64,000 bases of DNA, from positions 186,001 to 250,000 of the forward strand of contig NZ_LKBA01000019.1 of NCBI RefSeq assembly GCF_001307765.1, in the 5' to 3' direction. A model generated the notes under the pieces. It had not been told where the DNA came from and did not search any database. It worked only from the letters and a program-made list of their open reading frames with translations. The stretch is from Aliiroseovarius crassostreae (GTDB lineage Bacteria; Pseudomonadota; Alphaproteobacteria; Rhodobacterales; Rhodobacteraceae). The translations under genes and the position numbers were made by a program. Position 1 is the stretch's first letter. Every line of letters starts with the position of its first letter. Positions 40,052 through 43,895 of this stretch are shown here, piece after piece.

Positions 40052-40742
40052 GGGACTATCCTGAATTTTGTGCTCTGGCGTGGTAGCTCAAGAATGAGGA
40101 GACCCACGTATGAGCATCGACAAAGACCTTTTGGACCAGCTGATGGATGGGCGTTCGCCCGGTGATCTGTTTGGTAAAGATGGCGTTCTGGCTGAATTGA
40201 CGAAAGCGCTGGCGGAACGTGCCCTGAGTGCGGAATTGGACGATCATCTGACAGAAGACCGGTCTGATCCGCCGTCTGAAGGGGCAAACCAGCCGCCAAA
40301 TCGGCGCAATGGCAGCAGCCAAAAGACGGTAACGACCGGCAGTGGCAAGGTTGTTCTGGACATTCCCCGCGACCGCAACGGCAGCTTCGATCCGCTGCTG
40401 ATCGCCAAGTATCAGCGGCGGTTTTCCGAGTTCGACACCAAGATCATCAGCATGTATGCGCGCGGCATGACGACCCGGGAAATCCAGGGCCATATTGAGG
40501 AGATTTACGGCGTTGAGGCGTCCCCCAGCCTGATCTCGGCGATCACCGGCGCTGTCATGGACGAGGTCACTGCCTGGCAGACCCGCCCGCTGGAACCGTG
40601 CTATCCGGTCGTGTTCATGGACGCGAGCGTGGAAGCCGAGATGGCGATCTTTGAATACATCAACGGGTTCTATAATCCGCGCCGCCGTCACTCAGCACTG
40701 GGCTGGAAAAGCCCCGTGGCATTCGAACGGAAGGTGGCTTAA
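40052..40742 (+). mobile_element. chimeric transposase: IS256-type head fused to IS3 OrfB tail
   Basis: The open frame 40110-40742 has 210 codons. Residues 1-172 match an IS256/mutator transposase (KDLLDQLMDGRSPGDLFGKD, IPRDRNGSF, FDTKIISMYARGMTTREIQG, and CYPVVFMDA with the first catalytic Asp at 171). Residues 173-210, SVEAEMAIFEYINGFYNPR and RRHSALGWKSPVAFERKV, are the C-terminus of an IS3-family OrfB. The switch at about 40626 keeps the frame. The IS256 left end begins GGGACTATCCTGAATTTTG at 40051. Most of the catalytic triad is lost, so it is inactive. Its TAA lies at the edge of the following IS5-type element. Confidence 0.8.
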
Positions 40743-40857
40743 CAGGTCGCTGAAATAGTCGCTGAGCCGGAACGCTTTCCCGTCGTCAGGTCCGGTTCGA
40801 CTGAAGTGTCATGTCTGTCGGCGCGCCCACGGCTCGCTTCTGGGGCCATCTTTCCCT

Positions 40858-41917
40858 TCATACCGCCAGCAACCTCGGCAGCGGGGCAAGGTTGTTGGCG
40901 GCCATGGTCAGGATGAAGCGGGATCGGATGCGTTCGACGCCCCGATACATGGTCTGCGCCATGCCGCCGACGGTTTTGGCCCATCCGAACGGCTCTTCGA
41001 TCTTCTTTCGGTGCTGCTGGGATAGAGCGTAGCCCTCGTGCCGGGTGGTTCGGCCATCGATTGCTGAAAATCTCGTTTTCTGGGCGACATGGGGCGTGAC
41101 GCAGGCTTGGCGCAGGTCGGACACGAACCCGGCCGCGTCATATCCCTTGTCGGCACCCAGCGTCAGCTGCCGCGTCGATCCGGGGGAATGTCGATGGATC
41201 ATGTCCAGTGCCGCCTTGCGCTCGGCATGACCGTCCATTGCCCGGCAGGCGATTGCGCAGCAATCTGCCGAGAGGGGCCTGGGTCAGATCACCCTGCACG
41301 ACCAGCCCGTTGCGGTTCTCCATCAGAGTATGCCCCATGAAGCACAGCATGGCACCCGTGCCGGGGGATTTCTTGTAAAGGCGCGCATCCGGATCGGTGG
41401 TCGAGGCATGCGTCGCGTTCGAGCGCTTCTCGCCCTTGAAGTCGACCTCGGCATTGCGGTGGTGGCGTTTGTTGCGGGGCATCGGGTCTGTCTCGGCTGG
41501 GGTCTCGGAAGGCGCGGTCTCGCGGTGCGCCAGGATCGCCGCCATTACCTTGCGCGACATTTCCGTGGTCAGCAGCCGGTCGCGGTTCTTGGTGAATACC
41601 GTGGGGACCCATACCGGATCGTCGATCCCGAGGCCCACAAACCAGCGAAACATCAGGTTGTAATCCATCTGTTCCATCAACTGCCGTTCGGAGCGGATCG
41701 AGAACAGGATCTGGAGCAAGCTCGCCCGGATCAGCCGTTCCGGCGGGATCGAGGGGCGCCCAAAATCGGTGTAAAGCGCCTCGAATTCGGCATCGAGGCT
41801 GACCAGGGCGTCATTGACCACCTGTCTGATCTCGCGCAGCGGGTGCCGAGACGGGATGCGCTCCTCCAGATCAACATAGCTGAACAGCGACCCGATCGCT
41901 TCGTCCGTCCCGCGCAT
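40858..41917 (-). pseudogene. IS5-family transposase, frameshifted by a 40-bp hairpin insert
   Basis: Part one (41917 to about 41276) includes GSLFSYVDLEERIPSRHPL, ASLLQILFSIRSERQLMEQM and WFVGLGIDDPVWVPTVFTKN. Part two (41235-40858) includes DGHAERKAALDMIHRHSPG, LTLGADKGYDAAGFV and EEPFGWAKTVGGMAQTMYRG with the late catalytic Glu region. The two parts are joined perfectly in frame if 41236-41275 is removed. As it stands, translation ends in a junk tail after LTQA. Together they form a normal-length DDE transposase of the IS5/IS1182 kind. Confidence 0.82.
41236..41275 (-). repeat. 40-bp imperfect hairpin element, copy 1 (in IS5-type transposase)
   Basis: On the minus strand it reads CCTCTCGGCA, then GATTGC-TGC-GCAATC, then GCCTGCCGGGCAATG. 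The inner stem is 6 bp and the outer stem CGGCA/TGCCG, with a GCC bulge on the right arm. Removing it restores the transposase reading frame and residues. A sister copy at 43341-43383 has the same arms with one extra T-A pair in the stem. Confidence 0.8.
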
Positions 41918-42162
41918 CATACCCCCCCCCCGCCGTAACCATCCCGGATGGTGAATCATGTTCTCAAACCGCTGTCGAGGCAGGACTATTTCAGCAGCCT
42001 GTTAAACGAGCACCTGGCGCGGCACGAAAGCGCGACAGGTCCAATATTGCTCTCAAAGGGCCGGAACTAAACCGGAACAAGTCCAGTGGATTGGCGAGCC
42101 CTGACCGTGCCGGTACCGTTGCTGAGCATTAGGAACGATGGTTGGGGCACCCAGCTGTTTTG

Positions 42163-42819
42163 TCAGGGTAGGGGAGAAATGCCGATGACGAACTCATGTG
42201 CCCAGACGGTCAAGGTAAAAAGCACAATCCCCAGAGCGAAACGGACACTCCCGTTTATACTTGGCTTGAAACCAAGGTGAGTTTTACGCAATGCCTCCCA
42301 GGTTTCAGCTCCCAATTCTCGACGTGTTCGCCTGTTGATGATTGTCCGGCCAAACAGGGAAAATAATCCAAACAGTCCAAACATGATCACATGTGCCAGA
42401 TCGCCATTTGCCACCAGATGTGCACCTGACCAAAGCAAAAGTGCGACAAGTAGCGGGTGATGGAACCAACCGACAATGCCCGGATCATTCGGATCAAAAC
42501 GTGCGTTGTTACTGCCCCCAAAAGATAGGGGATTGGGGCGTCCGGCCGATAACGTGACAAGGATAATTGCCAGAAACATCAAGGTCAGGGCCAGATGATT
42601 TTGCCAGCTTTCCCAATGCCAGATAGGAATATGGGGGGCGGTTTGGGCAGCCATGATCAATACGGTCAGTGCTGCAATGGATAGGATGCTATAGGCCAGT
42701 GTGAAGCCCCGCTTGCCGAGGACACTTACCAGGCGGTGTTTGACCTTCGGTCGGGTGGGGATCGAGTGGCTGAGGAAGAAAAAGAGAATACCAAGTAAGA
42801 AATTGCTCCAGTCCTGCAT
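42163..42819 (-). CDS. nnrU: NnrU family membrane protein
   Basis: A 218-residue protein with about six hydrophobic segments. It matches the NnrU family (LLGILFFFLSHSIPTRPKVK, then GFTLAYSILSIAALTVLIMA, RFDPNDPGIVGWFHHPLLVA and TWEALRKTHLGFKP), whose founding member is linked to nitric oxide reductase expression in Rhodobacter. No nir or nor genes are in the window. It is the only intact gene in the IS-rich islet, lying between the IS5-type element and miniature element E. Confidence 0.85.
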   Translation of the reverse strand: MQDWSNFLLGILFFFLSHSIPTRPKVKHRLVSVLGKRGFTLAYSILSIAALTVLIMAAQTAPHIPIWHWESWQNHLALTLMFLAIILVTLSAGRPNPLSFGGSNNARFDPNDPGIVGWFHHPLLVALLLWSGAHLVANGDLAHVIMFGLFGLFSLFGRTIINRRTRRELGAETWEALRKTHLGFKPSINGSVRFALGIVLFTLTVWAHEFVIGISPLP

Positions 42820-42940
42820 CTGCCATCCCTTTTGAAAACTGTTCTTGTCTTGCTGTGTAGCGGAGCAGGATCTGAAACGAAATGTGGAAATGGAGTCTTA
42901 TTCCGCCATTAGCATGAGAGAGATGGTCCCAAGTGCCCAC

Positions 42941-42961
42941 TAAAGCGTTTCGGGATAAACT
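42941..42961. mobile_element. TA-flanked miniature element, copy E (truncated, about 19 bp left)
   Basis: TA-AAGCGTTTCGGGATAAACT matches the end of copies B and D but breaks off after 19 bases, where IS3-related sequence starts. It appears to have been cut by the IS3 remnant. Confidence 0.6.
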
Positions 42962-43039
42962 AGAGGTGGTCGCGGAAATTTGGGCCAGTCGTTAACCAGT
43001 CGTTAAGGTGGATCGCATGATGAAAGTGATGATCCAAAA

Positions 43040-43840
43040 TGAAGAAAAGAAAGAACCATTCGCCCGAGTTCAAGGCCAAGGTTGCGCTTGAGGCGATCCG
43101 CGAAGAAATGACGTTGGCTGAGCTGTCCAAGAAGTACGGCGTCCAACATGAAACGTAATGGCATCAATGTGGTCGGCACCGTGTACGACGGTTAATGCGT
43201 CTGATGCGTTTGGTTCCGATCTATCAGGAACCAAACGCCAGCAAGAAGCATCCACAGCATAAGGTCTGGCCATACTTGCTGCGCAACATGGTGATTGATC
43301 GTCCGAACCAAGCCTGGTGCGCGGATATTGCTTACATACCCCCTCTCGGCAGATTTGCCCTGCAAATCGCCTGCCGGGCAATGGATGCGGCGCGGGTTTT
43401 TGTACCTTATCGCCATTATGGATTGGCACAGCCGCAAAGTGTTGAGCTGGCAGCTATCGAACAGCATGGACGCAGATTTTTGCGTGGAGGCTCTGAAAGA
43501 GGCTTTGGCCAATCACGGCACACCGGAAATCTTCAACAGTGACCAAGGCAGCCAGTTCACCAGTGGCGCATGGATCGACGTGTTGGTGGACGCAAAGATA
43601 AAGATCAGCATGGATGGGAAAGGCGCTTGGCGTGACAACCGGATGATCGAGCGACTGTGGCGCTCGTTGAAGTACGAATGCGTCTATCTGAATGCCTTTG
43701 AGACAGGCTCAGAAATGCGCACCGGGATCGGCAAGTGGCTGAGCTACTATAATTCCGAACGCCCGCACTCGACACACGGCTTGTTGACCCCCGATGAAGC
43801 CTATGCAAGCAAAACACAGCCGATGAAAATAGCAGCCTAA
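43040..43840 (+). pseudogene. IS3-family transposase OrfA/OrfB, deleted and frameshifted
   Basis: OrfA (43040-43159) has the helix-turn-helix [14 protein letters not shown] and then stops. OrfB resumes as RLMRLMRLVPIYQEPNASKK, PNQAWCADIAYIP with the first catalytic Asp, then a 43-bp hairpin insert (43341-43383) shifts the frame. It continues MRRGFLYLIAIMDWHSRKVL, IFNSDQGSQFTS (second Asp) and DNRMIERLWRSLKYECVYL (Glu), ending SEMRTGIGKWLSYYNSERP and then HSTHGLLTPDEAYA. It would need two repairs to be active. Confidence 0.82.
43341..43383 (+). repeat. 43-bp imperfect hairpin element, copy 2 (in IS3 OrfB)
   Basis: It reads CCCTCTCGGCA, then GATTTGC-CCT-GCAAATC, then GCCTGCCGGGCAATG. It is the same element as copy 1 at 41236-41275, with one compensated extra base pair in the inner stem and a different loop. 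Removing it gives TAC-ATA-CCG-ATG-CGG, the expected YIPMR of IS3 OrfB. Confidence 0.8.
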
Positions 43841-43895
43841 TGAACCCCTGATCCACCTTAAACCGGCTGCAAACTGGTCTAAAATTTAGGACAAC

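Follow-up and report, generated by a model that had tools for sequence, protein, structure and literature searches.

A short hairpin element inserted in transposase genes of insertion sequences in Rhodobacterales

The window is a 64,000-nt stretch of the Aliiroseovarius crassostreae genome (contig NZ_LKBA01000019.1, positions 186,001 to 250,000). It contains two copies of a short imperfect palindrome, one in an IS5-type transposase gene and one in orfB of an IS3-type insertion sequence (IS). A preliminary description of the window had reported both hairpins. The hairpin enters DNA as a unit and without target duplication, and it may face either way relative to the host gene. It belongs to a family, apparently undescribed, of miniature palindromic elements that are copied as units and are spread across many marine Roseobacter-type bacteria, mainly Rhodobacterales. 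The two unrelated transposase hosts are the rule for this family and not a coincidence, which goes beyond the preliminary description. We put a probability of about 0.58 on the reading that the hairpin is a non-autonomous element, similar to repetitive extragenic palindromes (REPs), and that it owes its persistence to hitchhiking on other mobile DNA.

Both hairpins, and the arms that they have in common, were found where the preliminary description had placed them (Table 1). The arms are perfect and are 21 and 16 nt long, and these two are the only exact-arm hairpins in the window. The core of copy 2 is 42 nt (43342 to 43383), with a single leading C at 43341. Removal of 40 or 43 bases had been said to restore the two genes, and relatives with empty sites bear this out. 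The IS5 empty site of Roseinatronobacter sp. S2 reads CAGGCT^GACGG and is 40 bases shorter. The IS3 empty site of Roseovarius sp. THAF9 reads CATCCCA^ATGCGG and is 43 bases shorter. Eighteen more genomes of the family contain an IS5 that is 68 to 79% identical, and none of the 18 has a hairpin at the window site (the junction is directly legible in 10). One of the 18 (G212; L323/L098) has an antisense hairpin elsewhere in the same IS5 gene, before DEHFSV. The IS5 site of the window is also occupied in Leisingera methylohalidivorans. That hairpin shows five differences, and two compensated pairs account for four of them. Two findings would have spoken against the preliminary description: the hairpin as a normal part of intact IS5 and IS3 relatives, or a lack of further copies in related genomes. 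The intact relatives compared had no hairpin at the window sites, and further copies are abundant.

The insertion site was read from 170 distinct matches in the collected loci, of which 168 folded well; L091 and L235 were below the folding cut-off. The set comprised 120 flank clusters. Twelve clusters, judged to be chance or foreign matches, were removed by hand (L123, L177, L179, L188, L199, L203, L218, L225, L228, L232, L234, and L237). A clean empty relative, at least 74% identical, was found among the loci for 52 clusters at distinct sites. These 52 filled/empty pairs showed no target duplication, and the inserted lengths followed no frame rule. The net number of bases beyond the core was +1 in 29 pairs, 0 in 14, +2 in 6, -1 in 2, and -2 in 1. 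The right flank of the empty sites was G at +1 (79%), A at +2 (67%), Y at +3 (85%), and G at +4 (62%). The left CC was present at 92% and 75% in filled sites (n = 102), and the same two positions were C in 54% and 50% of empty sequences. Because GAYG on the right is there before insertion and the left C is weak in empty sites, GAYG is the target, and the leading C is mostly carried by the element. The insertion point is therefore directly before GAYG, or right at the 3' side of CRTC when the opposite strand is read. The hairpin feet are CCT and CARTG, and the flanks are YC and GAYG. The borders of the element are loose by about a base, with the looseness at the far end, and the target motif is degenerate.

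Neither inverted repeats nor folding energy was enriched at the targets compared with 1,211 control CCGAYG sites (1,000 of which were sampled for energy). The hosts had no sequence in common beyond a site of about 5 bits. Relative to the host gene, hairpins were sense in 43 of 84 loci, antisense in 35, and mixed in 6, and no orientation bias was seen with a hexamer coding score. The length of the open reading frame with and without the insert was tried as an indicator; it was uninformative, as the DNA is GC-rich.

Exact-arm copies numbered 11 in the 3.72-Mb A. crassostreae genome, against 0 for a reversed-pattern control. A wider pattern gave 22 copies, again against 0. Of the 295 genomes sampled from the family, 44 (A. 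crassostreae among them) contained the pattern CCTCTCGG-N6..36-CTGCCGGGCARTGG, each with 0 hits to the reversed pattern. A scan of GTDB, with one genome per species, retrieved at least 117 stretches with the hairpin pattern. Among the 80 matches listed, 71 were Rhodobacterales by title. The others listed were Labrenzia, alphaproteobacterial or rhizobial metagenome-assembled genomes, and four foreign matches, which were excluded. In a blastn search (E <= 0.1), 103 plasmid records were matched, chiefly from Pseudosulfitobacter, Sulfitobacter, Leisingera, and Phaeobacter.

The element is about 41 nt long (about 36 to 45) and has the form C + CCTCTCGG-...-CTGCCGGGCARTG. Type A has the form CGGCAG..CGCCTGCCGGG, type B has the form CGGGA..CCCTGCCGGG, and the short type C has the form CGGCGATTGC..GCAATCGCC. 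Further forms start with CCTCTCAT or CCTCTCGTG. The hairpin has about 13 pairs, a 3-base bulge in A types, and a 3-base loop in the common types, and it occurs mostly as single units. The 3' end CARTG yields ATG or GTG (85 A and 83 G among 168 hairpins), a feature that is partly built into the search patterns.

The outer arms are nearly unchanging across the family, and the inner stem varies through compensated pairs. The preliminary description had seen such compensation between the two window hairpins. That pair differs by one added T-A pair and not by a substitution; in the wider family, substituted compensated pairs are plentiful. Covariation was scored separately for types A and B, each with a set of 27 different 40-nt sequences; these were picked as distinct variants and are not a random sample. 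Paired cells made up 98.9% (A) and 96.6% (B), and two-sided cells numbered 23 (A) and 34 (B). The scores of both sets were matched by 0 of 500 shuffles. A cruder measure, the number of pairs with any two-sided change, was weaker and was matched by 14 (A) and 145 (B) of 500 shuffles. Pairing support was lost in both sets when the stem partners were shifted by 1 to 3 columns. The further copies, the empty sites, and the compensated stems support the earlier view that the hairpin is copied as a unit. Rfam gave nothing at the hairpins in 14 loci (E <= 1). The family is not described in the literature covered, i.e., papers on REPs, palindromic and bypass elements, Rickettsia elements, and REP transposases, a scope that excludes ISfinder and most subscription literature.

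The location of the hairpin was determined with the wider pattern in ten whole genomes. Most of these were picked for having copies, and the sample shows location and not frequency. Eight genomes contained 79 copies: 22 in A. crassostreae, 28 in G013, 11 in G055, 7 in G075, 5 in G279, 3 in G003, 2 in G239, and 1 in G009. By Pfam match, plasmid annotation, or flank reading, 76 of the 79 copies were in transposase genes of several IS families. The other three were in a RelE-family gene (L429 in G003), in an intergenic repeat (L100 in G009), and at a locus without host assignment (L444 in G013).

The flank clusters gave a similar result. Reading frames at the junction resembled those of other clusters in 84 of the 120. 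The six largest host groups contain 72 clusters, with membership by chained blastp matches and not by a Pfam match for each member. The representative of each group matched a transposase domain: rve; DDE_Tnp_1_5/DDE_Tnp_1; DDE_Tnp_1; rve with Mu-transpos_C_2; DDE_Tnp_IS66; and DUF772. The remaining 12 clusters form six pairs, which include tyrosine recombinase (L211 and L219), an intergenic repeat (L191), and the excluded L188. In a pooled Pfam scan of 83 peptides (one per cluster, minus L188), 26 families were matched. The 25 families listed were transposase, integrase-core, or helix-turn-helix families, except Phage_integrase, which was matched in 2. The scan also matched TnpB_IS66, IstB, and DDE_3 in untraced members. 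Another 25 real clusters remained. Of these, L117, L147, and L161 were in transposases, L181 was in an IS110 transposase by reading, L125 was in a RelE-family gene, L144 was in an intergenic repeat, and about 19 were without host assignment. The control scan took 67 CCGAYG sites at random from the same loci, each 1 kb or more away. They matched 97 families, almost all with a single member, and among the 25 listed, one was IS-related (IstB) and the others were ordinary genes.

The few identified hosts other than transposases are the RelE-family gene, positions beside or in tyrosine recombinase genes, and the intergenic repeat. The RelE-family toxin-antitoxin gene is split by the hairpin at one common site in L125 (by Pfam) and in L233 and L429 (by similar flanks). 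The intergenic repeat is about 250 nt, contains several hairpins, and hosts this hairpin at one place (L100, L142, L144, L168, L171, and L191). No Rfam match was found for it. It was considered as the parent element and rejected, as neighboring empty repeat copies in L100 and L142 mark it as just another host. FlgI was also rejected as a host; by elimination, it is a chance pattern match in L123 (Ignavibacteriales). Two or three hairpins lie near each other in L133, L139, L145, L201, L209, L356, and L357.

IS copies that carry the hairpin have multiplied. All eight IS5 copies in the A. crassostreae genome that span the site contain the same hairpin. Four of these are full copies of 1,409 to 1,412 bp with 0 to 6 mismatches, sited at different places with unlike flanks. 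The 4-bp flanks match in two of the four and also in the window copy with its deletion; the chance of a YTAR match is about 1/4. One further IS5 relative in this genome spans the site and is hairpin free; it is 69 to 76% identical and has an upstream frameshift. G013 contains six full IS3 copies (L343 to L348, e.g., L343:1381-2765), each with four hairpins in orfB, two sense and two antisense. No hairpin-free full copy of that IS3 was found in G013. G055 contains four IS427-type copies with two hairpins each, which are 98.9 to 99.7% identical over about 930 bp. The coding segments between the hairpins look intact. In the G013 IS3, five of the six copies were aligned, and their coding segments have 10 replacement and 2 silent changes, which is near neutral. 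The window IS3 copy is internally deleted, yet there are two copies of it in the genome, which indicates help in trans for at least that IS3. The same nucleotide site contains different hairpin types in different genomes in clusters 1, 2, 4, 8, and 13 (A, B, and C types). In L101 and L150, the flanks are 95 to 96% identical and the hairpins are 86% identical.

IS200/IS605 systems insert 3' of a tetranucleotide without duplicating the target, and they recognize a hairpin. Because the hairpin described here is inserted with the same geometry, an HUH-type (Y1-like) enzyme, provided in trans, probably cuts and joins it as a folded single strand. Hairpins that land in an IS would then be amplified and spread by that IS, which may itself be moved in cis or in trans. 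Hairpins that land elsewhere would remain single and would then be lost. The concentration in ISs would follow from this amplification and loss. Hitchhiking is preferred over targeting because the identified hosts other than ISs are also mobile or repeated DNA.

The known REP transposases are the REP-associated tyrosine transposases (RAYTs). Matches to the RAYT model NF047646 exceeded its cut-off in 4 of 13 genomes with hairpins and in 5 of 10 further genomes; one of those ten (G003) carries three hairpins. It matched nothing above the cut-off in the A. crassostreae genome and had no match at all in G002, G013, G067, G075, G183, G211, G262, and G279. The known RAYT family is not associated with the hairpin. 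The Y1 genes of the A. crassostreae genome are IS200-like. Together with the literature, these results support the earlier view of an apparently undescribed palindromic element without an evident mobilizing gene.

Several points weigh against hitchhiking by means of an HUH-type enzyme. No mobilizing enzyme was found with the RAYT model or by comparison with the ends of the resident IS200. That IS200 was considered as the mobilizer and rejected, as its ends are unlike the hairpin (judged by eye and in this genome only). The loose ends of the hairpin are unlike classical IS200/IS605 insertion. The confinement to ISs may be so strong that hitchhiking by itself is insufficient. Part of the IS5 spread may be recombination, given the mismatched 4-bp flanks in two of the five copies with legible ends. 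Coamplification in G013 and G055 is read from the presence of several near-identical copies. The peptides of the pooled scan were chosen by similarity between loci, which favors repeated families, and the comparison of hosts with controls uses 25 of the 97 control families.

The element resembles several known systems in part. Like non-autonomous elements of the IS200/IS605 group, it is inserted directly 3' of a tetranucleotide without duplication. Unlike them, it has one hairpin and no left and right ends, it is loose by about 1 base at the far end, and the IS200 ends in the A. crassostreae genome are unrelated to it. Like miniature inverted-repeat transposable elements, it is non-autonomous, palindromic, and multicopy, but it has no recognized parent IS ends and no target-site duplication in the 52 pairs. 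Bacteriophage T4 gene 60 and the mitochondrial byp elements contain hairpin-forming inserts in coding sequence, and at such bypass sites the take-off and landing codons match. The window hairpins have no matched take-off and landing codons, and the family occurs in both orientations.

The family shares with REPs in general a short imperfect palindrome, multiple copies, and a conserved stem; the predominantly extragenic location of REPs is not found here, with 76 of 79 copies in transposase genes. With GTAG REPs and their RAYT/TnpA-REP, it shares a short multicopy hairpin, bulged in one group, a foot motif, and single-strand processing, which is inferred here (REP features from PMC8266576). It differs from them in that it has no GTAG foot and no associated RAYT and is in transposase genes instead of extragenic DNA. 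CGTC REPs, including Rickettsia palindromic elements RPE-4 and RPE-6, are also mostly alphaproteobacterial, have a CGTC-like end, and can be intragenic, and no dedicated transposase is described for them (PMC3733652). According to the same source, they have 8- to 9-bp stems that open with A-T pairs, have 4- to 5-base loops, and are mostly head-to-head dimers, and their link to transposase genes is only fortuitous (PMC3733652). The longer stem, 3-base loop, and mostly single units of the hairpin differ from these. Its CRTC is target DNA that is present before insertion, and its hosts are transposases.

These likenesses and differences bear on whether the hairpin is an ordinary member of the REP superfamily (GTAG- or CGTC-tagged REPs or Rickettsia elements), with a known REP transposase or none, whose location in ISs is incidental. 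This is unlikely. The size, the bulged hairpin, the copy number, the alphaproteobacterial hosts, the terminal CRTC (CATC or CGTC), and the absence of a dedicated transposase agree with it, as do the RAYT genes in 4 of 13 tested hairpin-bearing genomes and the occurrence of some CGTC REPs within genes (PMC3733652). The stem, loop, unit arrangement, and transposase habitat differ from the CGTC REPs described there, and RAYT occurrence shows no association with the hairpin. Alternatively, an enzyme or host system might direct the hairpin to transposase genes in particular, making it a hyperparasite of ISs or a means by which the host attenuates them. The 76 of 79 copies in transposase genes, the recurrent sites with different hairpins, the presence of up to four per gene, and the two sites in the same IS5 type would fit such targeting. 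We consider it improbable: the hosts share only the short site, a few copies lie elsewhere (the RelE-family gene, the intergenic repeat, and the positions in or next to tyrosine recombinase genes), and hairpin-carrying IS copies keep multiplying. A bolder version, to which we also give a low probability, is that the hairpin is specialized on transposase genes as a class. It would be joined 3' of CRTC by an HUH-type enzyme, with up to four insertions per gene, and the carrier IS would still be mobile because the inserts are tolerated (through fragments, supply in trans, or skipping). If this is true, insertion sequences across Rhodobacterales would have a hyperparasite, or a natural brake, in this hairpin.

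Skipping might also stand by itself, with the hairpin passed over in the mRNA or by the ribosome, as with an intron or a bypass element, and the transposase functional. Neither the A. crassostreae genome (for IS5) nor G013 yielded an element-free full-length copy, and the coding segments between hairpins look intact. In addition, 86 of 125 distinct hairpins are stop-free in all six frames, compared with 31% in a simple null that ignores relatedness. We regard skipping as very unlikely, as both orientations are tolerated, insert lengths obey no frame rule, and the G013 coding changes are near neutral. In the window copies, moreover, the last codon ahead of the hairpin does not match the triplet that precedes the point of resumption (GCC/ATG and CCC/TGG). 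That the hairpin is an old, fixed, immobile part of the IS, inherited vertically, is hardly credible. The hairpin at the same IS5 site in L. methylohalidivorans, with changes in proportion to the flanks, would suit vertical descent. The empty relatives contradict it, and A, B, and C types at one site and 95 to 96% identical flanks around different hairpins also count against it.

Table 1. Hairpins, host elements, and target site in the window
Feature	Coordinates	Strand	Description
Hairpin copy 1	41236..41275	-	A type, 40-nt core; in IS5 transposase gene, gene-sense strand
Hairpin copy 2	43341..43383	+	A type; in IS3 orfB, gene-sense strand
Host IS5-type element	40743..42001	-	Inverted repeats CAGGTCGCTGAAATAGTC / GACTATTTCAGCAGCCTG, TTAA/TTAA on either side
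IS5 transposase gene, 5' part	41276..41959	-	Ends ...LTQA at hairpin; contains internal deletion
IS5 transposase gene, 3' part	40858..41238	-	DGHAE...GADKGYD...
Host IS3-type element remnant	43000..43865	+	About 370 bp missing relative to Roseovarius relative
Target tetranucleotide CGTC (GACG on element strand)	41232..41235	+	Adjoins 5' side of hairpin copy 1; already in empty relative L312

The window IS5 copy is about 150 bp shorter inside than the 1.41-kb copies elsewhere in the genome. A full-length copy (L001) is matched by Pfam DUF772. The first ATG of the 3' part of the transposase gene consists of the final three hairpin bases. Over its first 458 bases, the IS5 of the window has about 94% identity with the other copies, and over most of the remainder the identity is 100%; by this pattern, it seems to be recombined from two IS5 lineages. 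It is inserted at the stop codon (TTAA) of a reading frame at 40110 to 40742. By eye, this frame joins an IS256-type N-terminal part to an IS3-type C-terminal tail.

The spread of REP-like hairpins is poorly understood (PMC8266576). From the 52 filled/empty pairs, strand and target (3' of CRTC) are fixed for one such hairpin, an indication that what is called a REP "tag" can be target DNA. One tiny element inhabits the transposase genes of several unrelated IS families, in the fashion of a parasite within a parasite. Since ISs with as many as four hairpins in one gene are still multicopy, the effect of the insert on transposition is testable in cultured roseobacters.

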